Source: Nakazawaea peltata (Eukaryota > Ascomycota > Pichiomycetes > Alaninales > Pachysolenaceae). From it: 64,000 nucleotides of DNA. This document shows positions 1 through 64,000 of this stretch, piece after piece (the stretch's first letter is position 1; each line of letters begins with the position of its first letter). The notes under the pieces are model-generated. The model searched no databases and was not told where the DNA came from. It was given only the letters and a program-made list of their open reading frames with translations. The stretch spans positions 1,315,554 through 1,379,553 of the forward strand of contig BCGQ01000002.1 of NCBI GenBank assembly GCA_001599355.1, read 5' to 3'. A program made the translations under genes and the position numbers.

Positions 1-247
1 GGACTGATGGTTCATTGAAAGGCAAAACTTCTTGATCGGTCTTCATGTCTTCACGGAGTTGGTCCAATTGCTCGATAATCTTTTGCAGCTGATCATATTT
101 GGTTGATCCCAGAGCCAATTTTTCATTAGCTACTTGTTGTTGAAGGTCAGAGATGGCGTTGCCAATGATAATTGGCCAACGTTCCTTGCAAGTAGCGAAG
201 GCAAAAGACGTTTTGTCGTCATTATAGTAAACAGGGGGGACAGACAT
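1..247 (-). CDS. HRT2: DUF89 damage-control phosphatase, HRT2/ARMT1-like (5' part only)
   Basis: Reading the minus strand from an ATG at 247 gives an open frame of about 82 codons that runs off the left edge. The N-terminus includes ERWPIIIGNAISDLQ, which I recognise from the start of the fungal DUF89 proteins (S. cerevisiae Hrt2/YMR027W; related to human ARMT1). The family are metal-dependent phosphatases thought to clear damaged or unwanted sugar phosphates such as fructose-1-phosphate. The catalytic part lies outside the window, so activity cannot be judged. Two CTG codons occur in the fragment and should be read as Ala. The gene is divergent from the aldolase gene, with about 1.35 kb between the two start codons. 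The identification rests on a short stretch and is likely rather than certain. Confidence 0.7.
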   Translation of the reverse strand, partial: MSVPPVYYNDDKTSFAFATCKERWPIIIGNAISDLQQQVANEKLALGSTKYDQLQKIIEQLDQLREDMKTDQEVLPFNEPSV

Positions 248-1595
248 TATGGTATTCAGATAATAATGAATTCAATGATACCTCTGAGCAGAAGAATGAG
301 ATCCCTTTATATGTCACTATCAAAAGAGGCTCCCGAGATTTTTCCAGTACTATCTGAAAATTCGGGGTTGATGTCCAGATTAGAGAGGTGTATGACTAGG
401 TGAGCAAAAATCAGGAAAAGAGGGATCCTGTAGGGGTAAAAATGAGCGAGAATATGCTGATTAGAGAGGTGTTTGAGAGGGATGACCATGATGAAAGAAT
501 TCAGAGAGGACCGAGCTTGTCATTTGCGGGATTATGATAATACCATTGCAAGACTCAAAAAGGAAAGTAGATGGAGTCAATGGGGGTTTTGTCTTTCCGA
601 GAAGTGGAGTACCGTCACTCTACTCCACTCCATACATAGAGATATAGCCTACACACGCAGTTAAGATTTGGGATTTTTTTCCTCGGGCTTCTCTCTCAGT
701 GTGTGCATCAGCCAACGTCACTTTTTTGTGAGTGTAAAAATTTCATCATATAGAGAGGGTGATGAGGGGGGGAACTATTTTTTATGCAGAGATGAAGGTA
801 TTGACTAAATGGATTGACTAGTGCAGCAATGATGAGAATAAGGTTGTAGAAGTTTAAGATGATTGTCGAGATCATTAGTTTTCTCAGAGATCATATATAA
901 AGTATATTTAAACTGCAGCATTATATGTGCCTAAGATAGAAGAAACCCGGAGCTTAAAAGAGCCAAATCTTTCCCGATTGGGAATTTATAGCGATTTATA
1001 CCATCCGACTTCTCCACGTAAACTATTAGGGGAAAGGTGGGAAATGGACCCCGAGAAGGAGATCATGCTTCTGAAAACTGGGGTCTACAAGGTACTAAAT
1101 GAATTAAACACATTCTTATAGGCCAATTCATATAGTAATTGATGTAATGGCAACCAATTTCAAGCAGGCTTTTACAGATTTTTTTTTCCCACCAAAATGA
1201 TCAATATGATGATGGCATTTGACGGCACAACAATCGATTAGAAACCGATGGTGTCACATTATCAAAATTTATATATGTAGTGCAGACCTGAACAAAAAAT
1301 ACCGTCAACCCTCTGACGTCAACCCACCTTCGGTAAGTAAACTCTCCCCCTACCCAAAAACCATGGCGTGCCGTCCCCATCCATGCAATGTTTGTATGTA
1401 CCCTCCTGCTGCCAACAAATGGACAACTGACCAAGACGTGGGATGGTGCTCCTCACACATAATTTTTTTTTTCCCTTCGATTGCGGGAAAAAATTATATA
1501 TAGGCCATTTATTGTCGATCTGAATTAATTTTGTTGTAAATTCCTTACTATTTATTAGTTCAAACTAATTCAATTGAGAAATAACAAAGTATAAA
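248..1595. promoter_or_regulatory. Divergent intergenic region, HRT2 / FBA1
   Basis: About 1.35 kb with no convincing gene; short open frames here lack recognisable similarity and good start contexts. A TATATATA element sits at 1495-1502, about 95 bp upstream of the FBA1 start, just after a T-rich tract at about 1463-1473. This arrangement is typical of a strongly expressed glycolytic gene. No individual transcription factor site could be assigned with confidence. Confidence 0.6.
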
Positions 1596-3314: not shown

Positions 3315-5453
3315 ATGTCCGAGACTAGTGTGAAGAGGACTGGAGGAAGATATAGCAATGGTGGTGTACGCCATCATGGGAAGAAATCCAATAAGTCAGG
3401 TAATGGCGCTAACTCTGCTGTGTCTGGTAGTTTGAAGACTTTGTCCGAATTGTTCCCAGATTGGTCCCAAGATGATTTAAGCTTGGTATTACAAGAGCAC
3501 CAAGACGTTGAATTGAACGATATAATTGAGATGATCATTCAAGGCAAGGTCCATAAATGGGAAGATGAGTCCTCTTTTAATAATAAGAAAGATAAGAAGC
3601 TGAAGCTGCTGCAGCAACTGCAACAGCCGCTGCCACTGCCACAGCTGTCACATAACAATAACAATGAGTCTGGTCATAATGAACAGGTGGATAGAAATAG
3701 ATCTAAGGCTAAACGTGTGCCTGTAAAGAAGTCAAAGAGTACAACGGCGAGTGCGCCAGCTGCTAGTGCGCCAGTTGCTGCTGCCGCTGCTGCTACTTCT
3801 GCTGCTCCAGCTCCAGCTCCAGCTGCTGCTTCTTCTAATGGAAAGATCTCATGGGCTTCTGCTTTGGCCGGAAAGCCTAAGGTTGCCCCAGCTGCCCCAG
3901 CTCCAGTTGCCCCAGCTTCTGAACCAGTTGCTGCCCCAGAGGCTGTCGCTGCCCCAGAGGCCGTTGCTGCTGCTAAAGAGGCTGTCGCTGTTGCTGCTGC
4001 CCCAGAACTGACTCTGGTAGTCGAAGAAAAGAAGGAACAAAAACCAGCTCCTACCCCAGCTCCAGCTGCCAAACCAGAAAAGAAGTCATGGGCCTCTATT
4101 GTTGCCCCAAAGAAGAAACCTACCCCTGTTGCTGCCCCTGTTGAAAAGAAGAAACCTGCCCCTGCTGAAGCTGCTGCTGCTGCTGCTCCAGTTGAGGCTG
4201 TTGCTGAAGAGAAGGTCGAAGAATCTGCTCCTGTCGCCTCTGAGGAGAAGGTTGAAGAACCAGCTCCAGTTGCTTCTCAAGCTCAAGCTCCAGTTGCTGC
4301 TACTTCTGCCCCAGTTCAAGAATCTGCTCCTGTAGAACAAGAACGTGTTGTCTTACCATCCTCTGCCCAATCTCAAATGGGTTCTGTTGGAAGTATTGCC
4401 TTTGGTTCTTTGTCCATTGAAGACAAGGAACAACAACAACTGCAACAACAACAAAGAAACTACAACAACTACAACAACAACGGAAACAGTAACAACTTCC
4501 AAACTCAACAATCTTTGCAACAACAGTTACAACAACAACAATTACAACAGCAACAACAACAACAATTGCAACAACAGCAATTGCAACAACAACAACAACA
4601 ACCAACTCAACAGCAACAACAACAACAATCTCAACAACAGCAACAACAAAAGCTGTACCAAGATTACTACGGTGCTTACCCAGGTTACAACAACTACCCA
4701 GATTACAGTTCTGCTTACCAAGGATTCCAATCCCCAAGACTGCAAACTTCTCAGCAACCACAACAAGCTCAACAATCTCAACAAAGAGGTATTGATTACT
4801 CTGGTTTGCAACAATTGAATGGTGGTGATTTGTCTTCTCCAAATGCTAATGGTGCTGCCGCTGGTTCCAACAACACCAACATGCTGGCTCTGCTGGCTCT
4901 GCTGGCCCTGCTGCAACAACAATACCTGCAGTATTTCAACAGTGGAATGTACAACCCATACTACTACTACTACCCACAAACCCAACCACAACAACCATTC
5001 TACAACGGTCAATACCAACAGCAACCAACTGCTACCACTCCAAACTCGATTGGTAACAGTAATATTGCTGCCACTAACAACACTGCTTCTAGTAGTAACA
5101 CTGCCGCTGCTTCTGGAAACAACACTAACAATGCTAATTACCAAAACCAGTTGAAGCAGTTCTACAATGTGCCACCACCACCACACCATCACCCTCAATA
5201 TCCTCACCCATACCCTCCTCAACAAGTTGCTCCTGGTCCAGGTCAACAACTGGCTCCAGCTAACGGTGCCGCTGAGGACAAGGAAGAATCCGGTAAGGAT
5301 CAACAACTGCAACCACAGCAACTGCAACTGCAACCACAACAAGGATACTACCAACACATGCAGCAACAGATCCCTTACGGAGGTGTCTACGGTAATGTCT
5401 ACGGTGGAGCCGGTGCTCAAGCTAGCGCAGATTCTACTAGAGGTTGGTACTAA
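3315..5453 (+). CDS. DEF1: RNA polymerase II degradation factor Def1
   Basis: Def1 promotes ubiquitylation and destruction of RNA polymerase II stalled at DNA damage. The 712-residue product has the family layout: an N-terminal CUE-like ubiquitin-binding domain (about residues 30-80, with LSELFPDWS), two short SWAS motifs (ISWASALAGKPK and KSWASIVAPKKK, like the SWAA motifs of yeast Def1), a long Ala/Pro/Glu region, and a Gln/Asn/Tyr-rich C-terminal half rich in CAA repeats. I start it at ATG 3315; the frame remains open upstream only through a TTG. With CUG = Ala, codons 4884-4913 encode ten alanines in a row, matching an alanine run in the corresponding part of yeast Def1. Yeast Def1 is cut by the proteasome to release its N-terminal part; whether that happens here cannot be seen. 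Confidence 0.9.
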   Translation: MSETSVKRTGGRYSNGGVRHHGKKSNKSGNGANSAVSGSLKTLSELFPDWSQDDLSLVLQEHQDVELNDIIEMIIQGKVHKWEDESSFNNKKDKKLKLLQQLQQPLPLPQLSHNNNNESGHNEQVDRNRSKAKRVPVKKSKSTTASAPAASAPVAAAAAATSAAPAPAPAAASSNGKISWASALAGKPKVAPAAPAPVAPASEPVAAPEAVAAPEAVAAAKEAVAVAAAPELTLVVEEKKEQKPAPTPAPAAKPEKKSWASIVAPKKKPTPVAAPVEKKKPAPAEAAAAAAPVEAVAEEKVEESAPVASEEKVEEPAPVASQAQAPVAATSAPVQESAPVEQERVVLPSSAQSQMGSVGSIAFGSLSIEDKEQQQLQQQQRNYNNYNNNGNSNNFQTQQSLQQQLQQQQLQQQQQQQLQQQQLQQQQQQPTQQQQQQQSQQQQQQKLYQDYYGAYPGYNNYPDYSSAYQGFQSPRLQTSQQPQQAQQSQQRGIDYSGLQQLNGGDLSSPNANGAAAGSNNTNMLALLALLALLQQQYLQYFNSGMYNPYYYYYPQTQPQQPFYNGQYQQQPTATTPNSIGNSNIAATNNTASSSNTAAASGNNTNNANYQNQLKQFYNVPPPPHHHPQYPHPYPPQQVAPGPGQQLAPANGAAEDKEESGKDQQLQPQQLQLQPQQGYYQHMQQQIPYGGVYGNVYGGAGAQASADSTRGWY

Positions 5454-7086: not shown

Positions 7087-7356
7087 ATGGCTGAAAGAAG
7101 AAAGACCCACAGAAGAAAGAAGGACCCAAACGCTCCAAAGAGATCTTTGTCTGCTTACATGTTCTTTGCTAACGAGCAAAGAGACATTGTCCGTGCTGAG
7201 AACCCAGGAATCGCCTTCGGTCAAGTCGGTAAGTTGTTGGGTGAGAGATGGAAGCTGTTGACTGAAGAGCAAAAGAAGCCATACGAACTCAAGCTGGAGC
7301 AAGACAAGAAGAGATACGAGTTGGAAAAGGCTGAATACACCAAGTCCCAAGCTTAA
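7087..7356 (+). CDS. NHP6: Non-histone HMG-box protein, NHP6 family
   Basis: This 89-residue protein is almost entirely one HMG box preceded by a basic arm ([12 protein letters not shown]), exactly the design of yeast Nhp6A/B. These proteins bend DNA without sequence specificity and help FACT and other chromatin factors in the nucleus. The [15 protein letters not shown] and [13 protein letters not shown] segments identify the family. Two CTG codons lie where Nhp6 has alanine (GERWKAL and the KAQ position), one at 7255-7257, supporting CUG = Ala. The codon bias is strong, fitting an abundant protein. Only one copy is seen in this window. Confidence 0.96.
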
Positions 7357-12235: not shown

Positions 12236-12607
12236 TTAGTCATCATCATCATCAAATTCGCTCTCAGGGAACCATCCATATCTATCCATATCGACGCCAA
12301 ATGTCCCATCAGTATATTCATTGACCTCTATACCCTCTGCTTCGAGCATCTCCATTTGTCTTTTGACCCCATTACCATTAGCACGAGGAGAGATAATACC
12401 CCGCGCATTAACGACTCTCCACCAAGGTACTTCGCCCATTAATGAAGTGGGCAAATTCTTCAAAGACATCCCCACTTGTCTCGGGAGATCCGGTCTATAA
12501 ATAAGCTTCAGAATATGCCCATAGTTAGTCACGTATCCACGGGGTATAAGTTTGACGTAATCGTATACGGATTGATGGAAGGTTTCTACTTCTTCTGAGC
12601 GGGCCAT
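12236..12607 (-). CDS. Alkyltransferase-like DNA repair protein (Atl1 type)
   Basis: This 123-residue protein matches the DNA-binding domain of O6-alkylguanine DNA alkyltransferase: PRGYVTNYGHI, then RQVGMSLKNLP, then the active-site region. In true transferases that region reads PCHRV; here it is PWWRVVNARG, so the alkyl-accepting Cys is Trp, as in alkyltransferase-like (ATL) proteins. ATLs bind O6-alkylguanine and hand the lesion to nucleotide excision repair rather than repairing it directly. The usual His after the Trp is also replaced by Trp. S. pombe Atl1 is the best studied relative; S. cerevisiae has none. The C-terminus is acidic. The gene ends 45 bp from the convergent IBTK-like gene. 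Confidence 0.88.
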   Translation of the reverse strand: MARSEEVETFHQSVYDYVKLIPRGYVTNYGHILKLIYRPDLPRQVGMSLKNLPTSLMGEVPWWRVVNARGIISPRANGNGVKRQMEMLEAEGIEVNEYTDGTFGVDMDRYGWFPESEFDDDDD

Positions 12608-12951: not shown

Positions 12952-15900
12952 ATGGTAAGTTAAATTGGTTTATAGTGGTAGAGATGGCTTATGATAGTGA
13001 AAGGTCCGGCAAAACCATCCTTTTTCTGGACTCCCCCCATCAGCGCGCCCCTCCCTGCACTGGCACCCCCCAACGCGAGATCAAATACTAAGACAGACAC
13101 AATGGGTGTGGCGATACTTCTCTCAAGAATTATCCACTACCCATTCTCTATTATAGCCATATCTAAATCCCAAAGAGTCATTGAATCAACGTCGTAGACG
13201 TTTCATCTTGGATACAGACGTGAAAACAGAGCGCCAAAAAGATGGCACCAAAGATGCCGAGCGCCGTTTCAAATTCTTATTGAATCTCACCGATTTATTC
13301 AGTCATTTCATCAAGATCTCGATTAAAAAGAACCCTGAATTGGGTAGGATCGTGCGGAATTTAGAGGCCAAGCAAATTGGATCCAAAGCCTCCTCTTCAG
13401 GACGAAGAAAAAGTGCTACTGGAAGGAGAAGAAAGACAGAGAAAGAGGAAGATCTGGAATTAATGCATGACGAGGAGTTCGAAGAGGAAGAAACCACAGT
13501 ATTAGAAGAAAGTCCCTCGTATATCGACGGTAAATTAAGAGACTATCAGATCCAAGGATTAAATTGGTTAATTTCTTTACACCATAATTGTTTAAGTGGT
13601 ATCTTAGCTGATGAGATGGGTTTAGGTAAGACTTTACAGACGATCTCTTTCTTAGGATATTTACGTTACTATGAGAAGATCGATGGTCCTCATATTGTCA
13701 TAGTCCCTAAGTCCACCTTGGATAATTGGAGAAGAGAGTTCCTGAAATGGACTCCTGAAGTGGATGTGCTTGTATTACAAGGATCTAAAGAGGCTAGAAA
13801 TGATTTGATCAGGGATCGTTTATTAGAGCTGAAGTTCGATGTCTGTATCACCAGTTTCGAAATGGTGATCAGAGAGAAGAGTAAATTCTCCAAAGTTAAA
13901 TGGCAGTACATTATAGTAGATGAACTGCATAGAATCAAGAATGAAGAGAGCTCGTTATCTCAAATCATCAGATTATTCTATTCCAAAAATAGACTCTTGA
14001 TCACCGGTACTCCATTACAGAACAATTTACATGAATTATGGGCATTATTGAATTTTCTTTTACCCGATGTATTTGGAGATTCTCAGCTGTTCGATGAGTG
14101 GTTCGAAAACCAGGATTCCGATCAAGATTTAGTCGTCAAACAATTGCACAAGGTGTTATCTCCATTCCTTTTAAGACGTATCAAACTGGATGTGGAGAAA
14201 TCTTTATTGCCCAAGAAAGAGGTCAATTTATACGTGGGAATGACCGATATGCAAGTTAGATGGTATAAGAATTTGCTCGAGAAGAATATCGATGCTGTCA
14301 ATGGAGCCGTGGGTAAAAGAGAAGGTAAGACAAGGTTATTAAATATTGTGATGCAATTGAGGAAATGTTGTAATCATCCGTACTTATTTGAAGGAGCCGA
14401 GCCTGGTCCTCCATTCACTACCGATGAACATTTGGTATTCAACTCTGGTAAGATGATCATTTTGGATAAATTATTGAAACGTATGAAACTGCAAGGTTCA
14501 AGAGTGTTGATCTTCTCGCAAATGAGTAGATTACTTGATATTTTGGAGGATTATTGTTACTTCAGAGACTACGAGTATTGTCGTATCGATGGATCTACTT
14601 CTCATGAGGATCGTATCCAGCTGATCGATGAGTATAACGCCGAGGATAGTGATAAGTTCATCTTCTTGCTTACCACCAGAGCAGGTGGTTTAGGTATCAA
14701 TTTGACCAGTGCTGATATTGTTGTTCTTTATGATTCTGACTGGAATCCTCAGCTGGATTTACAACTGATGGACAGAGCTCATAGAATTGGACAGAAGAAA
14801 CAAGTCCATGTATATAGATTCGTCACTGAGAATGCCATTGAGGAGAAGGTGTTGGAGAGGGCTCTGCAGAAATTACGTTTAGATCAATTGGTTATCCAAC
14901 AAGGAAGAGCTCAACAGGCAAATAAAAACAGTAACTCTATTGGTAATACCAAAGATGATTTGATTGGAATGATCCAACATGGAGCTCAGAAAGTGTTTGA
15001 GACCAATAATAACACCATGGTCGACGACGATATCGACGAGATCTTGAAGAAAGGTGAAGAGAAGACCAAGAATTTGAACCAGAAATTCTCCAAATTAGGA
15101 TTAGATGATTTACAGAACTTCACCTCGGAACAACTGTCTCTGTACGAATGGAATGGAGAGAATTTTGCTAAGAGACAGCATGATCTGCTGTTTAGTTGGA
15201 TTAATCCTCGTAAAAGAGAGAGAAAGGAACTGACTTACAGTGTTGATGATTATTATAAGGACATGTGGCTGCTGGGAGGAGGTGGAGGTGCTGGGGGATC
15301 GAAACTGGCCGCCGCAAGAGCTCTTAGACCACCAAAGAATCACAATATCTATGACCACCAATTCTATCCTCCTCAATTGGCTGAATTATTAGACAGAGAA
15401 CAGTTGCTGTATAAAAAGAGGATCAGATATAAGGTTTCGTTGAGTGAAGTTGGGGATAGTGATGAGGATTTGATTGTCTCAGATGATGACGATGACGAGT
15501 CAGAGAGTAGAGAGTCTCGTCGTGCTAAAGAGCAACTGAAGATCGATGCCCTGACTGATTTGACCGAAGAAGAGATGCTGTTGAAAGAGCAATACCTTGA
15601 GCAAGGTTTTAGTGATTGGAATAAGAGAGATTTCGGTCAATTCATTCAATTATGTGCTAAATATGGTCGTGATAAGTATGATCTTATTGCTAGTGAAATG
15701 CATACCAAGAGCGAGCTGGACGTTAGACTGTATTCGGCAGTATTTTGGGAAAGATATTCGGAGATCGAAGGCCATGAAAGATACGTACTGCAAATCGAGA
15801 GTGGAGAAGAGAAAATTGCCAGGATGCTTCATCAACAACAAATGTTGGATAGAAAAATCACTATGTATCTGGATCCAATTCGAGAGTTGCAATTGAAATA

Positions 15901-16300
15901 TCCTCCAAATAACTCGAAAAGAGTATTTACCGACCTTGAGGACCGGTTCTTATTGATTCTGCTGCATAAACATGGATTAACTACGGAGAATTTATTCAAG
16001 ATCATCAAACAGGAGATCAATGAGCATGAATATTTCCGTTTTGATTGGTTTTTCAATTCGAGAAGTCCATTAGAATTACATAGACGTTGTCAGACTCTTT
16101 TATTAGGAATAACTAGGGAATTTGAAGGTGCTAACTACAAGAAGAGGAAGATCAATAGAAAGGTTGTTAATTCTAAGGGGGGTCTTAAAGAAGAGGGTGA
16201 GATATCTCTGACGGCTACACCAGATCCTCGACTTAAAGTGGAAGATGATGATGAAGACGATGGGGAAGATGATGGAGAGGAAGAAGAGGATGAAGAGTAG
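12952..16300 (+). CDS. ISW2: ISWI-family chromatin remodelling ATPase, Isw2-type (2 exons)
   Basis: The main frame carries a full ISWI protein: DEMGLGKT Walker A, a DEAH box in which Ala is CTG (13925-13927), helicase C motifs ending [13 protein letters not shown], then HAND, SANT and SLIDE regions, about 1048 residues in all. Wording throughout is closest to yeast Isw2, which slides nucleosomes to repress genes. No ATG opens the frame, so I propose exon 1 as the ATG alone (12952-12954), an intron 12955-13156 (GTAAGT donor, TACTAAG at 13085-13091, TTATAG acceptor), and exon 2 starting CCATATCTA at 13157. An in-frame TAG at 13154-13156 forces the acceptor to lie at or after this point. CTG also falls on Ala in PQAD, LQAMD and ERAAQK. 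The coding identity is secure; the exact splice is moderately so. Confidence 0.88.
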
Positions 16301-29397: not shown

Positions 29398-29469
29398 GGG
29401 GCATACTGGGAATTGAACCCAGGGCCTCTCACACCCAAAGCGAGAATCATACCACTAGACCACACGCCC
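29398..29469 (-). tRNA. tRNA-Pro (anticodon UGG)
   Basis: Read on the minus strand, the 72-nt sequence begins GGGCGTGTGG and folds as a standard cloverleaf. The acceptor stem pairs GGGCGTG with TATGCCC (two G-U pairs), the D arm contains A-box TGGTCTAGTGG, the anticodon loop reads CTTTGGGTG with anticodon TGG, and the T arm is CTGGG-TTCAATT-CCCAG. The discriminator base is C. There is no intron and no encoded CCA. A poly-T terminator follows. Confidence 0.96.
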
Positions 29470-30912: not shown

Positions 30913-30975
30913 TACTTCCGTCAGTCGTCTTATTACTTTCACCAAGATGACTAACCCCCAATTTATATTTTTCCT

Positions 30976-45930: not shown

Positions 45931-46287
45931 GTTCCTTGCCCTCAACCTGTCTTGATAGTCTAACCCAGACGTTGTTATCTTTATATAAGATCTGGCAATG
46001 GCCGCTCAAAGCTTCAAAAACCTTAATTTCTTCTGCGCTTGACGGTCCAAAAACTACAGTGATTGGTCACCTTTAGCAAACCTTAATTTAAAAAGGACCA
46101 CAAAAACTGCACTTTTTATTGTTCGACCTGCAGTTTGACGTATGCCGTGCGCAAGAAAAAGAAAAAAACGGATCAAATTAAATTTCTACGCGAGACGCCA
46201 AGATAAGAAACCATACAGATCATTTATTGGAACCTTGAAGAGTCGCTTGTGGTTCTGATTTTAAATAATATTTATAGGCTTATAAGC
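45931..46287. promoter_or_regulatory. SDR 3 promoter and SDR 4 3' side
   Basis: About 355 bp with no gene. The sequence AAACCTTAATTT occurs near 46078 and in a nearly identical form near 46018, which may mark a repeated regulatory element. Confidence 0.4.
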
Positions 46288-47037: not shown

Positions 47038-47597
47038 TTTTAATTTGTGGGAAGTGAAGTGTTTGTTAATAAACTGCTAAAGAGTTTGACTTTAATGATA
47101 TTTATTAATTCAGAAAATAGAAAGGATTTGGATGCTCTTTTATATCGTCATTTCAGATCAGTGGCGAATATATTGGAATCGTGGAATGTTCTAGTTGTCA
47201 TGGTTTAAATTAACATAATTCATCTACGTTTAATTGTCCATCTTGTTATTGGGTTATTCCATGTCCTTGGGCGCTTTTCAAGGTAAAGAGCAGCTCCTTT
47301 TCTTTTAAAGAGACTTCGGCCGTGCCAAAATTTCCTACAACGGAAGGTGGTTTTTTTTCGTATTCGTTATAAATTTAATTAGACTCTTTTTTGTTTCTGC
47401 CGAGCCGAATTCCTTGGTTGCTAAATCCGTGAAATAGAAAAAAAAACTTTGAGAAAGAGTAAGGCTTTAGCAAATAAATAATTTTATATATCTACAAGAT
47501 CTCTAATAAATAAGCCATCCCAAAAAGGGGGTTAGTGTATTTTTTTTTGAAAAAATCACGAGTGTCTAAGGACATCGAGTAATTTACTAAGGCTTGT
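47038..47597. promoter_or_regulatory. SDR 4 promoter and SDR 5 3' side
   Basis: About 560 bp with no gene. A TATAAAAG box at 47137-47144 (minus strand) and TCAGATCAGTGG at 47153-47164 are shared in order and spacing with the SDR 5 promoter. Confidence 0.55.
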
Positions 47598-48350
47598 TTA
47601 GAAAGGAATCTCAGATCCGTCATAACTGAGGAATTTACCAGTGTCAGTCTCAGTTAAACTATCAATAACCTTCAATTGCAGCTCAGCACTTTCCTCCGGA
47701 GTGATGTGCTCGAAAACTTGGGATGGATCGGAAATATCCACACCAATTTCCTTCAGAATACCAAAGAACATATCGGTTCCTACTGTACCAGGGTGAATAG
47801 AAGAGATTATCTTTTCGGAATTCTCCTTAGCCATTTGCTTCATGGCATAGTTTAAGTACAGCTTTGAAGCTCCGTACAGAGAAGTCAAGAATGGGAGACT
47901 ATCGAAGGTGCTGATAGAACCGACAATAGAGGATGTGAAAACCATCTTCTTGACACCTTTCCACAATTCCTCGTGTTTCTTCAACTGTTGATAGAAAAGA
48001 ATAGGGCCCAAACTGTTTACAACCCAAAGCTCTTGTTGATCTTCAGGTGGGACGATCTCAAGAGGTCCGAAAGTTGAGCTTTTACTGATACCAGCATTGT
48101 AGATGATGATATCAACTGTCTTAACTGCAGAAGCTAGCTCCGAGACAAACTTGGCGGTGCTTTCAGCATCTCCGGTGGTAACCTTAAGAATAGTAATGTT
48201 ACCAGTCTTCTCCAGCAACTCAGACAACTGCTTGGAATCGGATCTAGTAGTGGCAATGACCTTGGTATTTGGTCTGGCACTGAGTTCCTTGACAACAGCG
48301 AAACCGATACCTCTGTTACCGCCGATAACCAGATATGTAGTGGTAGACAT
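47598..48350 (-). CDS. Short-chain dehydrogenase/reductase, array member 5
   Basis: A 250-residue SDR with GGNRGIG, YNAGIS, TSSIVGS, YGASK and HPGTVGTD, ending FLSYDGSEIPF. It is the closest sister of member 4 and shares with it the 198-bp identical block and parts of the promoter. All catalytic residues are present. TATATAAAAG on the minus strand at 48449-48458 lies about 100 bp upstream, next to a perfect inverted repeat. This looks like an inducible carbonyl reductase gene; the substrate is unknown. Confidence 0.93.
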   Translation of the reverse strand: MSTTTYLVIGGNRGIGFAVVKELSARPNTKVIATTRSDSKQLSELLEKTGNITILKVTTGDAESTAKFVSELASAVKTVDIIIYNAGISKSSTFGPLEIVPPEDQQELWVVNSLGPILFYQQLKKHEELWKGVKKMVFTSSIVGSISTFDSLPFLTSLYGASKLYLNYAMKQMAKENSEKIISSIHPGTVGTDMFFGILKEIGVDISDPSQVFEHITPEESAELQLKVIDSLTETDTGKFLSYDGSEIPF

Positions 48351-49037
48351 TTTTAATTGGTTGGAGTGAAGTGTTTGTTGTTTAATCTGTTAAAGCGTTG
48401 AACTTTAATGATGTTCAACAACCTTGGGAACCAGGGATTTATGGTACTCTTTTATATAGTCATTTCAGATCAGTGGCAAATATGATCTCCACTGATCTGA
48501 CAAAGGATATTAGCTTACATAGAGAGTTCCAGATACAGTTCTCCAACTTTTCTTATTCCGCCTACTCCGGCTTCTAAATCTCAAGGGGTTAATCTTATTC
48601 TCGGATAATCCTCTTTTTCGCTGTGATCTCGCCCCGCCTAAATAAGAGCCACATTAGAGTATTTCCCAAAAAGGGAGGTTTCTCTTTTACGTTCGTAGAT
48701 TACATTAGCTGCTGTCGTTGGAATGTGGGAAGAGCATCTCAACCGAATTCCAGATCGTCGATAACAGTACGAAACCTCACTTCTAGGATCTAGCCAGCCT
48801 CTTTGCTTTATAATACTAACTGTCACAACCTTGACAATTCTACATGTATAGTTCCGCTTACGTAATCTCGTTCTCGCAACGATAACTTCTACGAGGACAA
48901 AAGGGCTCGCGGAAGAGGTAGTGTACAGATGACTACAGACAAGTCTAACGAACTTAGAGGGGGTGTTCATTAATAGAGGCGGAGGAAGTCGATATGAATC
49001 TGCCCAGAATAATCCTAAATTTATACAATTGACAAAA
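48351..49037. promoter_or_regulatory. SDR 5 promoter and SDR 6 3' side
   Basis: About 690 bp with no supported gene. It contains the TATA box and inverted repeat listed separately. A minus-strand open frame of about 140 codons at 48638-49063 has no recognisable domain and overlaps the end of SDR 6, so I leave it out. Confidence 0.45.
48465..48500. promoter_or_regulatory. Perfect 12-bp inverted repeat upstream of SDR 5
   Basis: TCAGATCAGTGG at 48465-48476 is matched by CCACTGATCTGA at 48489-48500, a perfect inverted repeat with a 12-bp gap. It starts 7 bp beyond the TATA box of SDR 5. The left arm recurs at the matching place in the SDR 4 promoter (47153-47164). It is probably a binding site for a dimeric regulator. 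Confidence 0.6.
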
Positions 49038-49778
49038 TCAGAATGGGATCTCACTTCCATCATAACTGAGGAACTTACCAGTCTCAGTCAAACTGTCAAT
49101 GACCTTCAATTGCAGCTCAGCACTCTCATCAGGGGTAAGAGACTTCAAGAAATCATGCTTGGAGTCATCGATACCCAAATGGTCCAAGACGTTATCCCAC
49201 ATATCAGTCTTAACTGGGCCTGGGTGAATAGCGGCGACAATAACGTCTGGCTCTTCCAAAGAAATAAGCTTCATATAATAGTTCAAAATCAGCTTTGAAG
49301 CACCGTACAGGGAGGTGCTCATTGGGATTTCGTGGAAAGTGGAGACCGATCCTACAATAGATGAGGTGAAGAACATCTTCTTGACGGTCTTCCACAACCC
49401 ATCGTACTTCTTCAATTCGACGTAGAACAGAAGTGGACCCAAAGCGTTGACGTTGAAGTGGTTAGAGAATTGCTCGAATGGAACTTGAGTAAGCGTGGTG
49501 TATGCGCTTGGGTCGGCGATACCAGCATTGAAAAGGATGACATCAATCTTCTTCACAGAAGAAGCCAACTCGGCGACAAACTTGGTAGTGCTCTCCTTGT
49601 TAGCAACCTCATACTTGAAGATGGTGATATTACCAGCCTTCTTCAGAAGTTCGCTCAAGTCAGATGAATCCGATCTGGTTGTAGCAAGAACTGTGGTGTC
49701 AGGTCTGGCGCTGAGTTGCTTAACAAGAGAAAGACCAATACCTCTGTTGGCTCCGATAACTAAGTAAGTAGTAGACAT
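49038..49778 (-). CDS. Short-chain dehydrogenase/reductase, array member 6
   Basis: A 246-residue SDR starting MSTTYLVIGANRGIG at 49778; the frame upstream opens only with TTG. It has FNAGIA, TSSIVGS, YGASK and HPGPVKTD and ends FLSYDGSEIPF. The codon use is more biased than in members 2 and 3, suggesting higher expression. TATAAAAG on the minus strand at 49849-49856 lies about 70 bp upstream, and CGG-N9-CCG at 49867-49881 could be a Zn2Cys6-type site. It is the 5'-most copy of the array, followed by a tRNA gene. Confidence 0.93.
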   Translation of the reverse strand: MSTTYLVIGANRGIGLSLVKQLSARPDTTVLATTRSDSSDLSELLKKAGNITIFKYEVANKESTTKFVAELASSVKKIDVILFNAGIADPSAYTTLTQVPFEQFSNHFNVNALGPLLFYVELKKYDGLWKTVKKMFFTSSIVGSVSTFHEIPMSTSLYGASKLILNYYMKLISLEEPDVIVAAIHPGPVKTDMWDNVLDHLGIDDSKHDFLKSLTPDESAELQLKVIDSLTETGKFLSYDGSEIPF

Positions 49779-50177
49779 TGTGTTCAATTAGTAAGTGTTC
49801 AAGTGATCTATCTGACCAAACATCCGATTATGACAACCATGGCTGGCCCTTTTATATTGTAGCCCTCGGAACTAAAGTCCGGCGAAAGTGGAGCTAAGAT
49901 TTTAAACTGCGCTATCTCCAGAAGTGTTCCAGTCGATTTATAATAATCCGAGGCTATTGTGAGCACCTGAGGTGTTCTTTGGAGAGGAGGTGTGAGTTAT
50001 AGAACCAGTGATCTTCTTGGCATGCTGTTGTTAGAACCTCGTAGAAAGTTGTTCGTAACATGCAGTTGTTCATTTGTCAGCAGACAACGCTACCATCTTT
50101 GACTAGTCAGCCTTACCTACAGTTAGTGGGCTTAGCGAAAACTAAAGAAAACAAAAAAAAAAAAAAAAAGCAAATGA
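49779..50177. promoter_or_regulatory. SDR 6 promoter and tRNA-Ser terminator
   Basis: About 400 bp with no protein gene. The A-run at about 50149-50169 is the poly-T polymerase III terminator of the adjacent tRNA on the minus strand. Confidence 0.55.
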
Positions 50178-50259
50178 CGTCACAGACAGGATTCGAACCT
50201 GCGCATGCAGAGCACAACGCCTTAGCAGGGCGTCGCCTTAACCACTCGGCCACTGGGAC
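50178..50259 (-). tRNA. tRNA-Ser (anticodon GCU), no intron
   Basis: The minus strand folds as an 82-nt class II tRNA. The D arm contains TGGCCGAGTGG (A box), the anticodon stem ACGCC/GGCGT encloses CTGCTAA with anticodon GCT, a long variable arm follows, and the T arm is GCAGG-TTCGAAT-CCTGT (B box). The discriminator is G, as expected for Ser. One acceptor pair (fourth) is C-U, a mismatch. There is no intron, whereas S. cerevisiae tRNA-Ser(GCU) genes have one. It reads AGC/AGU, so it has no part in decoding CUG. Confidence 0.94.
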
Positions 50260-50426
50260 AATACTCTATAATCAAAAAGATAAAGCTTTAGTACATATGT
50301 GGAGCTTATTATTGAATGAAGTTTCTCCAAATGAATAAAATTATAGTGCACGACTCTTTCGTGTATCCCTTTTTTTTGAAAGAAATATATTACTACAACA
50401 CGGCCTAAAAGAGACATTTGGATAAA

Positions 50427-53400
50427 CTACCTATATACGTGAATACAGCCACTTCTATCGGTAACGATTATCATTTCGTATGGGTGTTTGATGAATCTGA
50501 CGTCAGTTATCAAATCGGTTGGCTTGTTCTTAATTTGCATCTTCAGTGATGAGATCTTCTCGGTCCTTGGTTTTGACTCCAGCATCGAATTCTTCATCGA
50601 AGCTTTGTAACTATACCTGACAATTCCCGGCTCCATAGTCGGAACCTCACTACATGCCAACTCAGAGTCCAGATCAAGCAAGAATTTCAAATCCATGTTT
50701 CGTAGATTCCAGAAAACCAATTCATTCTCAGGTTGTTCAGTGGTAGTTGAAACCAGGTATGTACAGAACTTTTGACTACCAAATTGGGCAAAGCACAACT
50801 GAGTGCAGCCTGATAAACCTAAATGATTGTCAGGAAGTTTTGTCGAGGCCGGTGGGATCTGAGTTAGGTTAGAGATATCCAAGATCAAGAATTCAGAGTC
50901 ATTTACAAACAGGACGTTTTTGTTCCGTTTGGTGTTCCTGAAATCTGCTGGTAATTTCAGGAGTCTTCCTACTCTGTTGAAATTTAACAGTTTTAATTGA
51001 ACCTGGAATCTCAAATCCCACAAATCCAAATATCCATGACTAGTCAAACACAAACACCAAGAACCATTCTGATCTAATACAAAGGAGGTAATTAGACCAT
51101 GACTAGGGTCATTTTGGAGTACAAATTTGTCTGTCATCGTTTTGATATCTACTCCTATCAAGCGACTAGAAGTGGTAGCCAGAACTAATAAGCCATCCTC
51201 AGAGGTTATTTCCATCGCCAAAGTGTATTCGCCCAGCAAAAGCTGATATTCTCGAATCAACAACATTCTGAATTGTTGATGGATCGATACTCTCTGCGGT
51301 CTACTCGAAGGAGACCTCTCCACGACTACTTTATATATCTGAATGAGACCATTTTTCATACTGACACAGATACAATCTCTGTTGGGAACAAAGCACATCA
51401 GTTTAATAGGAGATCCCAAATTCAAACTTACGGCACTGAGTCCAGTTACATTACGCTCTAATCTTGACAGATCCCACAATTTAAGAAGTCCGTCATTATC
51501 ACCAGTAATGAAATAGCCATGATCCGGAGACACACAAACACAGTTACAACTTGATTTATGTTCGGTTAAGTTCAGAACCATTGTGCCCTTAGGATTCCAT
51601 GTCTTCGATTGTCGCTGCTGTTGTTGTTGCTGTTGTGAAACAGAATCATTTTCGACATTGGGGGCGGATATCAGTGGGCCAAACTCAATATAATCATCCA
51701 ACCGAGGTTCGAATTTAAAATCAGATAAATACTTCAATATATAAGGGTTCCTTCCTCTGTAGTTATGCAGAACATTGGTCACTAAATCTCCTACACCATC
51801 AAGTAATGTCTGTGCATCATCATGGGACTCTCCTCCTACACTTTCTTCGTCGACGGTCATCTCTTCCATATCATGTTCTTCAGGTATATGCAGAGAAATT
51901 GCAAAAGCATTACCGTGGTCTTCGTGGATTGAAGGCAGCAGTTTGGTCATCGATCCACCTAAGAGTAATTGTTGCAGAAGCAGTGGAGGTGGTGGAGTTG
52001 AGAAAGAATTTGCTGGAGAAACAGAGCGTGATATCTGAGTCTTCAATGGCCATCTGGACACATTTCCAGCGGCGTCATTTCCCTCGACAATCAGGGCATT
52101 AAATGAAGAATTAGAAATATTAGACCGGTGACTGACTTCAAAGAATAAGGTCTTAGGTAAAACTCCAATTTTTTGTAAATCTACATGGAGGGACTCTACA
52201 TTGCCCATACTTTTGGAAGTAGAAGCAACACTACTCAACCGGGAGATTCTGAAAATATAATCTCTCATTGTAGCCAACTTCCAGAAATCCTGTTCATGTA
52301 ATCCTGAATTATTCAATTTTGTCAACCATTGTTTATCGTCAGGAGAGACAGGTATTTCTTCATTGGTAGTTACAATATAACTATTTTGGAATCTGAAATT
52401 ATTAGTCTTTGTCTTGACCATAAAAGACATTGCAGTATTACCAAAGGAATCTATCTGTTGATTACCCTCCCGTTGCCAGAATAACGATTTCTCACTATGC
52501 AGTTGGCGAGCCCAAGTGATTAATAAACGATACACAGAACGACTCAATGGTTTAGTAAGACACGGATATAAAGAGTCATAATCGAAAACTGTGACATCAT
52601 ACTGGAAAAAAGGACGGATAATTGGGTACAGAATACAATAAAGATCCAGCAAGGATAAACGATCACATATGCTGATGATCAAGATTAAAGTATGTTTACG
52701 AATCCACTCATTTGGATGAAGGAGTAATTTTACAACGGTGCGGACTAAATCCCAAATCTTTCTTTTGGAGATGAATTGCAATTTAATCAACTCGACAAAG
52801 ACTTGGAGGATCTTGAATACCACCAATTCATCAGGATCACTTATTGTTTGTACAAGTAATGGGAGAATATACTGGTCAAAAGACAGGATTCCTGTGAACA
52901 TAGACAATGGTAAGATGGAATCGATAAAGCTAACCCGTAATTGCAGATCCTTATCATTTAAGTAGGTGATTAAATGAGATAAAATCAAGTCATTGGTCTT
53001 ATCTTTACCAAAAAACTCACATATTTCGGTGATGTTTTGAAGTAATGCAATTTTAACCTTGGAATCCGGGTCTGTTAATAACATAAGTACGAAATTTTCG
53101 AAATCATTCAGTTGCGGAGTGAATGAATTGCCAGAAGGAGCCACTGGAGCCTCAGTGTACAGATCTAAAATCAGTCCGAAATCCTCGAATTTAGATGCCA
53201 GTTGCATTAAATAAGGCAAATAAGCAGCAAATTGTAACTTGACATCTCTTTGGCCAGATTGCAGAAAAGCCGATAAACGAGGCAAGATATATTCAGGCCA
53301 TATCGAAAGGTTGACTACGGTTATAGAATCACACATATATAGTAACTGCAGAATTGCTCTCAACAGGGCAACTTTCACATCAGAACATGGGTCTTCCAAT

Positions 53401-54734
53401 AAATACATGAGGTAAGGAAGACATCTATCTAGCTTCATTTCATCACTGATAAACTCCAGGAGCAGAATTATCAAATCACAACTCTTGATACGGAAAGAAG
53501 AGTGTGTCGTATTACGAACCAGCGATAAAACGACACTCAATAAAATAAGCAGTTGGGGGTTAAGAGTCAGTCTAAGAGTAGAGACCGGTTTATACTGACC
53601 CCATTCGGGAATGTCCAAGGTCAATGGTATGAGAGATTTCTGCGCAGATAAAGGATCTGTGTCTTGGACTAAATTTGGTCGTGTCAATATCTCTCCGATC
53701 GAGTTATAAATTGTGTCAATTTTATAGTCAGATTCCTGGAATCGATCACGATAAGACCGTGAATCTGGGGCTCTATAAATACTCAATTTTCTTACTAAAG
53801 GATAGATTTTTTCGGAGAATTGGGGTACAAATAAGCGGCCAGAATATTTTTTCAGTAGTTGAGCCAGGGACAATCTTTGATCGGGGTTTAGTTGGATCAT
53901 ATCTTGAATTAATTCTCTGACATTATGATCTGTTATAGTACCCAAATTAGGCAGATATTCTCCAGTTTTATACTTGAACATCTGGGATAAAGTGAAGATG
54001 GAGGATCCGTCCATATAGAGTTCGGCAATTGCACATCCAGCACTAAATATGTCCATCTGCCATGTTAAGTTACGATTCAGAAGATCAGGGCTCATGGTAT
54101 CTGAGTCGACAAATCTCTCGGGCAGCACGTAACATGCATTTCTTTTAGATATATCGAAGTAAAATGAGAATTGTGAAGAGTTCTGAGGTAACATTGTAGG
54201 TTTGAAATTTTGGAAGTCCAGGAGTAAACACCAATTCCATGATGTGATCAAGATATTCTCTGTCTTAATATCACCATGATAAATATTTTGGGCGTGTAGT
54301 TCAGTTAAGGTGTTTATTAATTGGAAGGTGATCCAGTTCTTCTCAAAAGGTTCCAAGAATGGACGAATCGATAATCTGTCGAACAAGTTGGTCTTGACAA
54401 ACGGTCTCAATAAGTATGTAGCCCTATCGGTCTCGATCAACTTGGTGAAGGCTAATACATTGTCTGAGGTCTGGATCAATTTTTGCATTTCCAGCTCCAA
54501 TCTTCGGAGTATCGCAGTATAATCGATTCCTGTCTCAATAGGGTTCAGCAGAGACTCTGGTTTGATGAAAACTTTGATAACAACCATACCATTGGCGTCT
54601 AGTCCTTTGATGGTCTTGAGGAACCGTGAAGATGAGATGGTAGAGGAGTATTGCACCCCGGGTACCACATCGATATACGATTGTAACAGAACTATAGGCA
54701 GTGTCGGAGTCAAAAATGATAATTGAGCTCCCAT
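50427..54734 (-). CDS. VPS15: Vps15 protein kinase-like subunit of the Vps34 PI3-kinase complex
   Basis: This 1435-residue protein starts MGAQLSF, giving the Gly2 needed for N-myristoylation; the frame upstream lacks an ATG. The order is an atypical kinase domain (about 25-300, with HGDIKTENILITSWNW and the SSRFLKT/VIKVFIKP strands), HEAT repeats (about 390-720, including ILSHLITYLNDKD and ILYPIIRPFF), a variable linker with a Gln run, and a C-terminal WD40 propeller (about 1090-1435). Vps15 anchors and activates Vps34 in complexes I (autophagy) and II (endosomes). Its length is near that of yeast Vps15. Confidence 0.97.
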   Translation of the reverse strand: MGAQLSFLTPTLPIVLLQSYIDVVPGVQYSSTISSSRFLKTIKGLDANGMVVIKVFIKPESLLNPIETGIDYTAILRRLELEMQKLIQTSDNVLAFTKLIETDRATYLLRPFVKTNLFDRLSIRPFLEPFEKNWITFQLINTLTELHAQNIYHGDIKTENILITSWNWCLLLDFQNFKPTMLPQNSSQFSFYFDISKRNACYVLPERFVDSDTMSPDLLNRNLTWQMDIFSAGCAIAELYMDGSSIFTLSQMFKYKTGEYLPNLGTITDHNVRELIQDMIQLNPDQRLSLAQLLKKYSGRLFVPQFSEKIYPLVRKLSIYRAPDSRSYRDRFQESDYKIDTIYNSIGEILTRPNLVQDTDPLSAQKSLIPLTLDIPEWGQYKPVSTLRLTLNPQLLILLSVVLSLVRNTTHSSFRIKSCDLIILLLEFISDEMKLDRCLPYLMYLLEDPCSDVKVALLRAILQLLYMCDSITVVNLSIWPEYILPRLSAFLQSGQRDVKLQFAAYLPYLMQLASKFEDFGLILDLYTEAPVAPSGNSFTPQLNDFENFVLMLLTDPDSKVKIALLQNITEICEFFGKDKTNDLILSHLITYLNDKDLQLRVSFIDSILPLSMFTGILSFDQYILPLLVQTISDPDELVVFKILQVFVELIKLQFISKRKIWDLVRTVVKLLLHPNEWIRKHTLILIISICDRLSLLDLYCILYPIIRPFFQYDVTVFDYDSLYPCLTKPLSRSVYRLLITWARQLHSEKSLFWQREGNQQIDSFGNTAMSFMVKTKTNNFRFQNSYIVTTNEEIPVSPDDKQWLTKLNNSGLHEQDFWKLATMRDYIFRISRLSSVASTSKSMGNVESLHVDLQKIGVLPKTLFFEVSHRSNISNSSFNALIVEGNDAAGNVSRWPLKTQISRSVSPANSFSTPPPPLLLQQLLLGGSMTKLLPSIHEDHGNAFAISLHIPEEHDMEEMTVDEESVGGESHDDAQTLLDGVGDLVTNVLHNYRGRNPYILKYLSDFKFEPRLDDYIEFGPLISAPNVENDSVSQQQQQQQRQSKTWNPKGTMVLNLTEHKSSCNCVCVSPDHGYFITGDNDGLLKLWDLSRLERNVTGLSAVSLNLGSPIKLMCFVPNRDCICVSMKNGLIQIYKVVVERSPSSRPQRVSIHQQFRMLLIREYQLLLGEYTLAMEITSEDGLLVLATTSSRLIGVDIKTMTDKFVLQNDPSHGLITSFVLDQNGSWCLCLTSHGYLDLWDLRFQVQLKLLNFNRVGRLLKLPADFRNTKRNKNVLFVNDSEFLILDISNLTQIPPASTKLPDNHLGLSGCTQLCFAQFGSQKFCTYLVSTTTEQPENELVFWNLRNMDLKFLLDLDSELACSEVPTMEPGIVRYSYKASMKNSMLESKPRTEKISSLKMQIKNKPTDLITDVRFIKHPYEMIIVTDRSGCIHVYR

Positions 54735-55553: not shown

Positions 55554-56243
55554 TCATAATTTTGACGACCTGGCCTTTTGAATTTCTTTAGATTCATCGA
55601 GATAATGCAGAATCCATTTGTATCTGTCCTTATTACACAGTTCCAATTCCTCATTCCAATATCCACAATCCTTGAACATCTGGATAGGAGTGATAGTGTA
55701 TGATTTTTCCTTCAGTACCATCTTGAAGATCAATTTTGAAATTGCAAGACAGCATAATCTACCAGAAGAATCGACAAAGCGACTCACCATAAAGACATAT
55801 TTATCGCTCCAGGCGAAGAATTCAGTGTATATGGTATATTTTACAAATGGTTTGATCTGACGATGGAAATGCAGCAGCACCGACAGTACCGGGATCAAAA
55901 TTTGCAGGTCCTTATACTTCTTCTTCAGGTCGAAAAAGACTTGAGGCAACTTATTACACATCATCTGGGTCCTCAGCAGATCCAAATCCATGAAATAAGT
56001 GGAATTGGACTTGTGCATATAGAAGTCACATTCGAGCGGTGAGCAATATGTCTTGTAAACATACGGTCTGAAAAGCAGAAGCTTGTCGTTCAGCTTGTCA
56101 TCGGTATTGGTTGGGAAGTATAACCCTTTTAAAGTGAGGTAGTAAAACTTCAATGCATGAGAAAATGGAAGGGATTTGTATGTGGACAAGACAAAAGCGG
56201 CCAGCAAGATCTTTGCCAACTTATTCAGGTTCGTTTGATCCAT
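55554..56243 (-). CDS. 4HBT_2/THEM6-like hot-dog fold protein
   Basis: The 229-residue protein has a hydrophobic N-terminal helix (about 8-25) and a region with ECDFYMHKSNSTYFMDLDLLRTQ, which fits the D-x-x-x-H-x-N/S-x-x-Y core of 4HBT_2 thioesterase-like proteins. Later segments (YTEFFAWSDKYVFMVSRFVD, GRLCCLAISKLIF) fit the beta strands of the same fold as seen in THEM6. An acyl-CoA thioesterase role is possible, but the catalytic residues of this branch are not settled and the fold call rests on a short motif. It ends 48 bp from TMH11. Confidence 0.55.
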   Translation of the reverse strand: MDQTNLNKLAKILLAAFVLSTYKSLPFSHALKFYYLTLKGLYFPTNTDDKLNDKLLLFRPYVYKTYCSPLECDFYMHKSNSTYFMDLDLLRTQMMCNKLPQVFFDLKKKYKDLQILIPVLSVLLHFHRQIKPFVKYTIYTEFFAWSDKYVFMVSRFVDSSGRLCCLAISKLIFKMVLKEKSYTITPIQMFKDCGYWNEELELCNKDRYKWILHYLDESKEIQKARSSKL

Positions 56244-63100: not shown

Positions 63101-64000
63101 GGACAGGATGGAAGAGTTACTGACACTACGATCCATGTTCTTTAAAGTCAGTGAAGACGAGGATTTACGTTTGGAGAGTGAACCTTTCAGCAAGGAAGTG
63201 AAGCTTCGAGATTTTGAGCCCAAGCTTGGACTCACATTCCCAGTGGACGAGATATTAGATCCGCTTCCATTGGAATTCCCATAAGTATCTACCGAACCAG
63301 ATCCGTTCATATCTACTTTCTGTGGGATGATCCTACCACTAAGAGTAGTATTTGGTTTCATTGACTGCTGGTGATACTTGTCGTGAGATGCATTGAGAGA
63401 CATTGTCCTGGTCTGTTGGACTGGTGGTTGGTGGTAAAGCTCCTGATGGACGGCACCTGTCGATACTGAACGTAAACCTTGACCGTTCGCACCACCTTGT
63501 CTTCCGAAGAACCCGAGTCCTTGTTTTAGTATAGGACTACGTTGGTTATTTGGAGGGAAGTTTGCTTGTTGAGGGGAGTTTCTGAATCTCTCTGGGACAG
63601 CTTCTGGAAGGGAGGAAAGGTTTGTTTTGAGCAGTGGGAGCTGTTGGGGAGGTTGTTGGTGGTGCTGTGGTTGGTGGGGATGCTGATGGTGCTGTGGTTG
63701 GTGAGGGTGCTGTGGCTGATGCTGATGGTGAGCTTGCTGATGGTGAGGATGTGGACGCATTGAAGGAGCGGAAGCCACTCTTTGTTGGGGTTGGTAGTTT
63801 GAACGGGGTACCCCTGGGGCCATTTGATGATACAGATGGGAATTGGGGTGCGGCAGGTGCTGAGTCAGGTGATGAGGCAGGTGCTGATGATGCAGTTGAA
63901 CCTGATGATGCTGATCCATAGGACTTCTATGATTCTGTGGAATATGCTGTTGAGCCTGTGGTTGTTGAGCCTGGGGCTGGACCTGAGACTGCTGGATCGG
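60137..64000 (-). CDS. ROM2: Rho1 guanine nucleotide exchange factor, Rom2-type (5' end beyond the window)
   Basis: The minus-strand frame is open from 60137 to the right edge, so at least 1287 residues are present and the start is outside; ATG 63919 is internal. The order is a His/Gln/Pro-rich disordered region, a DEP domain (VFHDV-type, about 62810-63070), the Dbl-homology domain (YTERDFVKDLEYIRDFW through KPTTRMPKYILLLKTI, about 61780-62370), a PH domain with VQVYLFDHALVFVRIK, and a CNH domain at the C-terminus. This is the architecture of Rom1/Rom2, which activate Rho1 in the cell wall integrity pathway from Wsc/Mid sensors. Tus1 is the less likely alternative. Confidence 0.93.
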   Translation of the reverse strand, partial: PIQQSQVQPQAQQPQAQQHIPQNHRSPMDQHHQVQLHHQHLPHHLTQHLPHPNSHLYHQMAPGVPRSNYQPQQRVASAPSMRPHPHHQQAHHQHQPQHPHQPQHHQHPHQPQHHQQPPQQLPLLKTNLSSLPEAVPERFRNSPQQANFPPNNQRSPILKQGLGFFGRQGGANGQGLRSVSTGAVHQELYHQPPVQQTRTMSLNASHDKYHQQSMKPNTTLSGRIIPQKVDMNGSGSVDTYGNSNGSGSNISSTGNVSPSLGSKSRSFTSLLKGSLSKRKSSSSLTLKNMDRSVSNSSILSKLIMTTSRRPAIYPALLSRVAQMFQDSIVLGSRFKNGLEYRDCFTGAELVDVILHIIRTSDRNLLLLLGRALDLQRFFHDVTYEHRLRDTQNEVYQFNTVTTFFEDQESRHNSLTSPSPVMGQPSQFLPSSAGQLQLQQPQQRSPSGAGNMQLLQLQQLVPIPVNGVFTLLTECYSPTCTKDRLCYSIACPRRLEQQLRLNLKPQGGLRNDNHLTSLMEPDESKHLWSYSVPKDVLESVGKKELKRQELIFELIYTERDFVKDLEYIRDFWIRPLRESNIIPEREREKFIRTVFSGIQEILLVNSKFAELLTRRQNQKPIVDQISDIMLQYIPHFEPFVYYGAGQVFGKYEYERQKTTNPLFARFVEETERLKESRRLDISSFLSKPTTRMPKYILLLKTIKHNTEPSNPDYENLDKCIELLEKVLNRINLETGKLADRHELIVLKQKLQFRPREYVDLKLTLPQRRLLYNGILKKRKDDKDNQGEVQVYLFDHALVFVRIKIVNKREQHKVYQRPIPLQLLFVTTDEDSTPLRQLTRRPTFQTSVSGAGSGAQSSLTLTSSHTSGFGAHSRNGSTNFTSSSSLINTLQYTNSISSSMNVNSTKFPFTFLYIGRKGYELTLYLSNFTAQRTLLDKIEEQHRKLIEQNDIFTLTPLMQKFFDSNNKINCVVPFDGGRRLLYGTDSGVYVSNIRRSELGERVVSVPVKVINKVNVIQLEVLEEYQTFLVLTDKKLMSWPLDILQQQPDSNKNAKVGKELMTHVSFFRVGICSGRMLVCLLKNGSNHLIRVFEPIDPIQQKKLNKKKFKNETKELYFNSEPVSISFLKTKLCVGCTKGFEIVSMETNSMESLLDPLDTSLDFVTNKEGLKPLEIDRINSDFLLSYSDFSFYVNRNGWRSRSNFLITWEGLPQSFAIWYPYLLLFDLNFIEIRHVETGELIRIINGENIRLLHSSSQEILYLYEDERGYDVVASLDFWDKSMPGGNAKQEA

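Follow-up and report, generated by a model that had tools for sequence, protein, structure and literature searches.

Alanine as the main or sole reading of CUG, and heavy use of the codon, in a 64-kb nuclear stretch of the yeast Nakazawaea peltata

Here we analyze the meaning and the use of the codon CUG (CTG in the DNA) in a stretch of Nakazawaea peltata, contig BCGQ01000002.1, positions 1,315,554 to 1,379,553. Below, "the window" denotes this whole stretch of 64,000 bases, which has 40.4% G+C and contains a single N. Judged from the sequence, CUG stands mainly or wholly for alanine, since the columns that hold CTG in the yeast hold Ala more often than any other residue in its relatives. Alanine ranks first among all 20 possible assignments in a comparison with relatives of solved structure, and it also comes first against bacterial NuoG and in the Pfam totals, in agreement with the claim of the first-pass annotation. 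We are therefore highly confident that the window belongs to the nuclear genome of a CUG-Ala budding yeast (order Alaninales), to be translated with NCBI code 26. The reassignment as such is already known; the part worth following is the heavy use that is made of the reassigned codon.

Results

CTG is the most frequent alanine codon

Codons were counted in 29 open reading frames (ORFs) of the window, comprising 14,106 codons with stops included; this set underlies all usage figures given here. CTG accounts for 384 codons (27.2 per 1000) and is present at least three times in every ORF. From the base composition at the three codon positions 164 in-frame CTG would be expected, so that the codon is used 2.3 times as often as predicted. 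Read as Ala, it tops the five Ala codons (384 of 1072, 36%), followed by GCT (369), GCC (185), GCA (102) and GCG (32); the earlier remark that CTG is common here thus holds. Leucine amounts to 86.9 per 1000 codons when CTG is excluded.

Other codons depart from the same expectation as well: GCG occurs far less often than predicted (32 against 182), as does CTA (28 against 192), and TTG is enriched (527 against 203). No link was seen between the CTG share and codon optimality (Spearman -0.05, p = 0.81, 28 ORFs; FBA1 was left aside as the source of the preferred-codon definition), and in FBA1 itself CTG makes up 6 of 36 Ala codons. The top CTG load among the 29 is found in the ORF at 55554-56243 (-), with 14 CTG in 229 amino acids (61 per 1000). 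A Gln/Ala-rich ORF at 3315-5453 (+), which we take to be DEF1-like, holds 24 CTG, part of them within runs of Gln and in a repeat of the form A-X-X, and CAG/CTG interchange in such repeats may feed the gain of CTG. The gene names DEF1, NHP6, RRG7 and SNU66 are our own presumption or that of the first-pass annotation, the genes having no Pfam or PDB match here.

Relatives with solved structures place CTG at alanine

Ten of the 29 ORFs were searched against PDB sequences with CTG translated as Leu, and the relatives were then realigned with CTG as X. Recruiting relatives in this way favours, if anything, the standard code. For each protein, one or two of the matches listed were used: one of 52 for the ISWI ATPase, two of 10 for RNase III, two of nine for chorismate mutase, two of 10 for FBA1, one of seven for VPS15 (two of three matched stretches), two of four for CUS1/SF3B2, two of seven for the YMC1-type carrier, one of seven for one short-chain dehydrogenase (SDR), two of 12 for a CDC20/CDH1-type WD40 protein and the single match of the elongase. 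YHM2, FAD2, SLY41 and NHP6 stand outside this tally. A first tally comprises 14 alignments and a fuller one 17, the additions being Cus1, UCP1 and CDC20 relatives; five further alignments were near-copies of those used and were excluded. The 20 assignments were ranked with emission tables built from the other codons of the same alignments.

In the fuller tally the 137 CTG columns hold Ala 41 times, Ser 12 times, Glu and Leu nine times each, and other residues less often; they are thus far from aligning mainly with Leu or Ser. Where at least seven of the 10 neighbouring residues are identical, the share of Ala is 24 of 45 columns (Ser 4, Leu 1). Alanine is the best of the 20 assignments, with Ser 56.1 bits behind, Thr 78.0 and Leu 269.7. 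Its margins stayed positive in all of 1000 resamplings of the proteins (minimum 3.9 bits over Ser, 88.2 over Leu), and in a control that left out one codon at a time, all 51 codons represented by 10 or more columns were assigned correctly.

Outcomes are similar for the first tally, in which 121 CTG columns represent 102 distinct codons of the window, 30 of them with Ala in at least one relative. The residues found are Ala (39), Ser (9), Glu and Leu (8 each), Asn and Val (7 each), Ile and Lys (6 each), Thr (5) and fewer of the rest. Again Ala outranks the 19 other assignments, Ser lying 57.5 bits below it, Thr 63.1 and Leu 238.3. With one relative per protein it leads Ser by 38.8 bits and Leu by 188.5. 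The control was right for 50 of 51 codons, GCA being misassigned to Ser. The three added relatives contribute 16 columns with 2 Ala, 3 Ser and 1 Leu, and they left the ranking unchanged. All other codons seem to keep their standard meaning: a BLOSUM control placed 59 of 60 correctly on the combined data and 58 of 60 on the solved relatives (46 of 55 on NuoG alone, see below), codons with few columns being weakly tested.

Near-invariant alanine columns of NuoG carry CTG

FBA1, RNase III, chorismate mutase and ISWI were each compared with one or two relatives, and only the NDUFS1-type complex I subunit (16700-18925, +) with many, namely the best 80 of 159 confirmed bacterial NuoG loci. This gene contains 19 CTG codons, 18 of which fall in columns covered by NuoG. 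The modal NuoG residue in these columns is Ala in 11 cases, Gly in four, and Val, Gln and Thr in one each. Among the columns that are at least 90% conserved, CTG occupies 6 of 30 Ala columns but 0 of 21 Leu and 0 of 6 Ser columns. Scores for CTG are 20.7 bits for Ala, 6.1 for Gly, 2.8 for Ser and -14.1 for Leu.

Pfam profiles favour alanine

A Pfam scan of 20 of the 29 ORFs was run under three readings only, Ala (table 26), Leu (table 1) and Ser (table 12). Summed over 39 domains, with one family per region chosen by us and overlapping rows dropped, the totals are 4693.2 bits for Ala, 4605.0 for Ser and 4507.7 for Leu (Ala +88 over Ser and +186 over Leu). Rows that favour Ser or Leu are among those dropped: VPS15 HEAT (S 43.5, A 41.7), ISWI HDA2-3 (S 29.2, A 27.7), SLY41 UAA (S 31.0, L 27.6, A 26.8) and EamA (L 53.0, A 51.2), SDR4 KR (L 33.7, A 32.0), and others. 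Domain by domain, Ala wins 35 times against Leu (2 ties, 2 losses) and 32 times against Ser (2 ties, 5 losses); a kept row with a large loss to Ser is the RCC1-like domain (S 45.4, A 34.7).

CTG within conserved motifs

The first-pass annotation had listed motifs in which CTG would stand for Ala. All 17 of these codons are present in frame, and the eight coordinates it supplied proved correct; 16 were found by motif look-up in nine genes, the 17th being that of NHP6. In the ISWI ATPase gene (13463-16300, +) CTG takes the Ala position of the DEAH box (13925-13927), which is Ala in ISW1 (6jyl) with 9 of 10 neighbours identical, and is seen twice in PQ-X-DLQ-X-MD (14753-14767, codons at 14753 and 14765), both positions being Ala in ISW1. 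The CTG of ERA-X-QK (14864-14866) is likewise present, but the expected Ala is not borne out: the solved ISW1 relative carries Thr, and for this reason the site is not diagnostic. The best solved matches of this gene are ISW1 chains, and they do not decide between ISW1 and ISW2.

FBA1 (1596-2678, +) has CTG in AA-X-FGN (2259-2261), where both 7rgn and 7yva have Ala and 10 of 10 neighbours are identical, and in QY-X-YL (2481-2483), again Ala in both relatives. The same was found for DVFE-X-YVGG (20427-20429) of RNase III (19611-21413, -) and for VAE-X-KF (34350-34352) of chorismate mutase (ARO7; 34071-34844, -), with Ala in both solved relatives used for each.

For the FAD2-type desaturase (38466-39737, -), CTG lies in the histidine box HECGHQ-X-FS (39330-39332), a position that we presume to be Ala in the family; the Pfam desaturase scores (Ala 79.6, Ser 79.6, Leu 76.9) do not separate Ala from Ser. 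GERWK-X-L has CTG at 7255-7257 (+; ERWK starts at 7243) in what we take, with the first-pass annotation, to be an NHP6-type HMG protein, with Ala presumably at this column. The look-up also located the motif codons of YHM2 (36223, 36502 and 36508), YMC1 (33207), the elongase (59078 and 59072) and SLY41 (41845). The last had been given as VKALSP and reads IK-CTG-LSP, so that CTG does occupy the Ala slot, whereas the residues before it are IK and not VK. Outside the 29 counted ORFs, the one at 12236-12607 (-) has CTG in GHI-X-KLI; from this motif we take it to be alkyltransferase-like (MGMT-type), with Ala presumably expected at the CTG.

Observations that fit less well

A number of results weigh against an alanine reading and are collected here. 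The two domains lost to Leu and the five lost to Ser in the Pfam comparison belong to them, as does the BLOSUM control on NuoG alone, with only 46 of 55 other codons placed correctly. Within the 64 kb of the window we detected no tRNA with a CAG anticodon; the only tRNA genes found are tRNA-Pro(TGG) at 29398-29469 (-) and tRNA-Ser(GCT) at 50176-50260 (-), neither of which decodes CUG. The Cus1 relative shows Ser, Gly, Leu and Lys in its four CTG columns, hence no Ala.

Six tandem SDR genes (42599-49778, -) add to these points: in nine CTG columns, the 26 partner residues among the paralogues include Leu seven times, Met six times and Ala once (the remainder being two each of Lys, Thr, Ser, Gly and Gln, and one each of Val and Ile), so the paralogue comparison in these six genes yields no support for Ala. 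CTG directly follows YGxSK in six of six copies and directly precedes its Tyr in five of six, which leaves the columns by the YxxxK motif nearly without partners; in 7xwh, a relative of solved structure, both flanking columns hold Ala. For the SDR that was searched, the best of the solved matches listed are short-chain dehydrogenases of the 7xwh type. Two of the copies (46288-47037 and 47598-48350, both -) are very alike.

The VPS15-type gene (50427-54734, -), with 48 CTG, provides Ala matches as well as the best-conserved match of CTG to Leu, at codon 702 (YCI-X-YPIIR; 8 of 10 neighbours identical). More generally, an Ala match is less common at CTG columns (39 of 121) than at GCN columns (107 of 218, p = 0.003), and on the 121 columns a mixture of Ala, Leu and Ser (weights 0.77, 0.13 and 0.10) beats pure Ala by 12.6 bits. 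The lower overall conservation of CTG sites relative to GCN sites goes in the same direction as the published tendency.

The excess of Leu opposite CTG over that opposite GCN is not significant (9 of 96 against 11 of 146 non-Ala columns, p = 0.64). Serine is rarer opposite CTG than opposite GCN (first tally, 9 of 82 against 31 of 111 non-Ala columns, p = 0.004). The six residues that are one mutational step from CTG show no significant excess over GCN columns (28 of 82 against 31 of 111, p = 0.43), so that an origin of the non-Ala columns through mutational neighbours is neither supported nor excluded. Decoding may be ambiguous at a low level.

Discussion

Alternative readings of CUG

Under the standard code, CUG would be Leu and the Ala columns would be coincidental substitutions. 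This explanation could draw on the nine of 137 CTG columns with Leu in a relative (one of them, VPS15 codon 702, well conserved) and on the seven of 26 partner residues in the SDR paralogues. Nonetheless we give it practically no credence: Leu trails by the widest of the margins quoted above for the solved relatives, is beaten by Ala in 35 of 39 Pfam domains and finds CTG in none of the near-invariant Leu columns of NuoG, while leucine already reaches its frequency of 86.9 per 1000 codons without CTG. A serine reading, as in the codes of the Candida group or of Ascoidea and Saccharomycopsis, comes second on the solved relatives and obtains the higher Pfam score in five of 39 domains; it is very improbable all the same, if a shade less so than leucine. 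Besides its deficit of 56.1 bits on the solved relatives, it lies 17.9 bits below Ala on NuoG, where Gly takes the second place, no near-invariant Ser column of NuoG carries CTG, and Ser is significantly rarer opposite CTG than opposite GCN.

The least improbable of the three, though still very unlikely, is ambiguous decoding, in which CUG would be mostly Ala with a sizeable fraction of Leu (or Ser) owing to a retained second CAG tRNA. The better fit of the three-way mixture points this way, as do a few CTG at Leu columns (for instance VPS15 702 and ISWI 834), and CAG tRNA genes of both the Leu and the Ser type are reported side by side for four of the five Ser2-clade species studied in PMC5951914. 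However, the lower conservation of CTG sites is by itself enough to improve the fit of a mixture, Leu is not significantly more frequent there than at GCN columns, and CTG is found in none of the 21 near-invariant Leu columns of NuoG. Some relic Leu columns would moreover be expected at CTG in any case, because Leu codons are one mutation away from it.

If CUG is Ala, it would be decoded by a tRNA-Ala body whose anticodon mutated to CAG. Alanyl-tRNA synthetase, acting independently of the anticodon, would charge this tRNA, and the ancestral tRNA-Leu(CAG) would have been lost. The Ala identity signal of a tRNA is the G3-U70 pair.

Comparison with known code changes

That the code itself is not new, as the first-pass annotation stated, agrees with NCBI table 26 and with the report of CUG-Ala in Pachysolen, Nakazawaea and Peterozyma (PMC5951914); in the NCBI taxonomy these three genera form the order Alaninales, with Pachysolenaceae as its one family. 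It is the code that points to this order; within it, Pachysolen probably has a much lower G+C than the window, which would make Nakazawaea, Peterozyma or an unsampled relative likelier. The window shares with the Alaninales code that CUG is Ala in nuclear genes of a budding yeast and that the other testable codons are standard. In the CUG-Ser codes (Candida group; Ascoidea and Saccharomycopsis) the same codon is affected, but the amino acid is Ser there and Ala here; the proposed route is the same, a synthetase that ignores the anticodon allowing a tRNA to capture CUG (PMC5951914). A further parallel is found in Ashbya mitochondria, where CUU and CUA are reassigned to Ala according to PMC3874161: Leu-box codons have been captured as Ala in both cases, although the Ashbya change is mitochondrial and concerns different codons. 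For Ascoidea rubescens, statements in two sources disagree, CUG being given as Ala in a 2017 review (PMC5499181) and as Ser by mass spectrometry in 2018 (PMC5951914). An annotation following the former would be wrong.

The window differs more clearly from the published picture in how CUG is used. In clades with a changed code, PMC5951914 describes CUG as relatively rare, tending to be located in orphan genes or poorly aligned regions and to keep away from well-conserved sites. In PMC4986446, which predates the Ala finding and treats Pachysolen as a Ser-code yeast, the class I myosin of Pachysolen has two to three CUGs, all off conserved positions, and no CUG is reported at the most conserved Leu or Ser positions of the set studied there. 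Here, by contrast, CUG reaches 27 per 1000 codons and 36% of the Ala codons, occupies near-invariant Ala columns of NuoG, and in the DEAH box of ISWI as well as in FBA1, RNase III and chorismate mutase stands where the relatives compared have Ala. Avoidance of CTG has been reported for Serinales and Ascoideales (PMC11540330); unlike in these orders, CTG is not scarce here. None of the titles and abstract openings listed in our literature searches states a high CTG use in Alaninales, and the passages of PMC11540330 consulted do not discuss CTG levels in this order; that study covers the codon usage of 1,154 strains with the Alaninales code applied, and its tables may hold the figure for this species.

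A kinase gene model

Besides the CTG analysis, one gene model deserves mention. The MAP-kinase-like ORF at 29613-30401 (-) aligns with no more of the Pfam kinase profile than its C-terminal part, the ORF upstream of it (30583-31026, -) is N-lobe-like, and between the two we observed GTAAGT (starting at 30597) and TACTAAC (30559). Given these observations, 29613-31026 (-) is probably a single kinase gene with an intron.

Implications of heavy CTG use

The practical consequence of the alanine reading is that a standard-code annotation would miswrite 384 residues of the 29 ORFs as Leu, several of them inside functional motifs, the DEAH box being one. With regard to evolution, CTG is two nucleotides away from GCG and three from GCA, GCC and GCT. 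Near-invariant Ala sites that moved between these blocks would have passed through a non-Ala intermediate (such as GTG for Val or CCG for Pro) or through simultaneous multiple substitution. Since no GCN codon is one mutation from CTG, its presence at near-invariant Ala positions would offer a direct test of how a codon crosses between disconnected synonymous blocks; a similar crossing is debated for serine (TCN and AGY). Tentatively, and with somewhat less than even confidence, we suggest that reassignment in this yeast has reached an end state outside the published picture considered here, with CTG as the leading Ala codon and established in near-invariant Ala sites. Going by the window, a sense codon does not have to remain rare once it has been captured.

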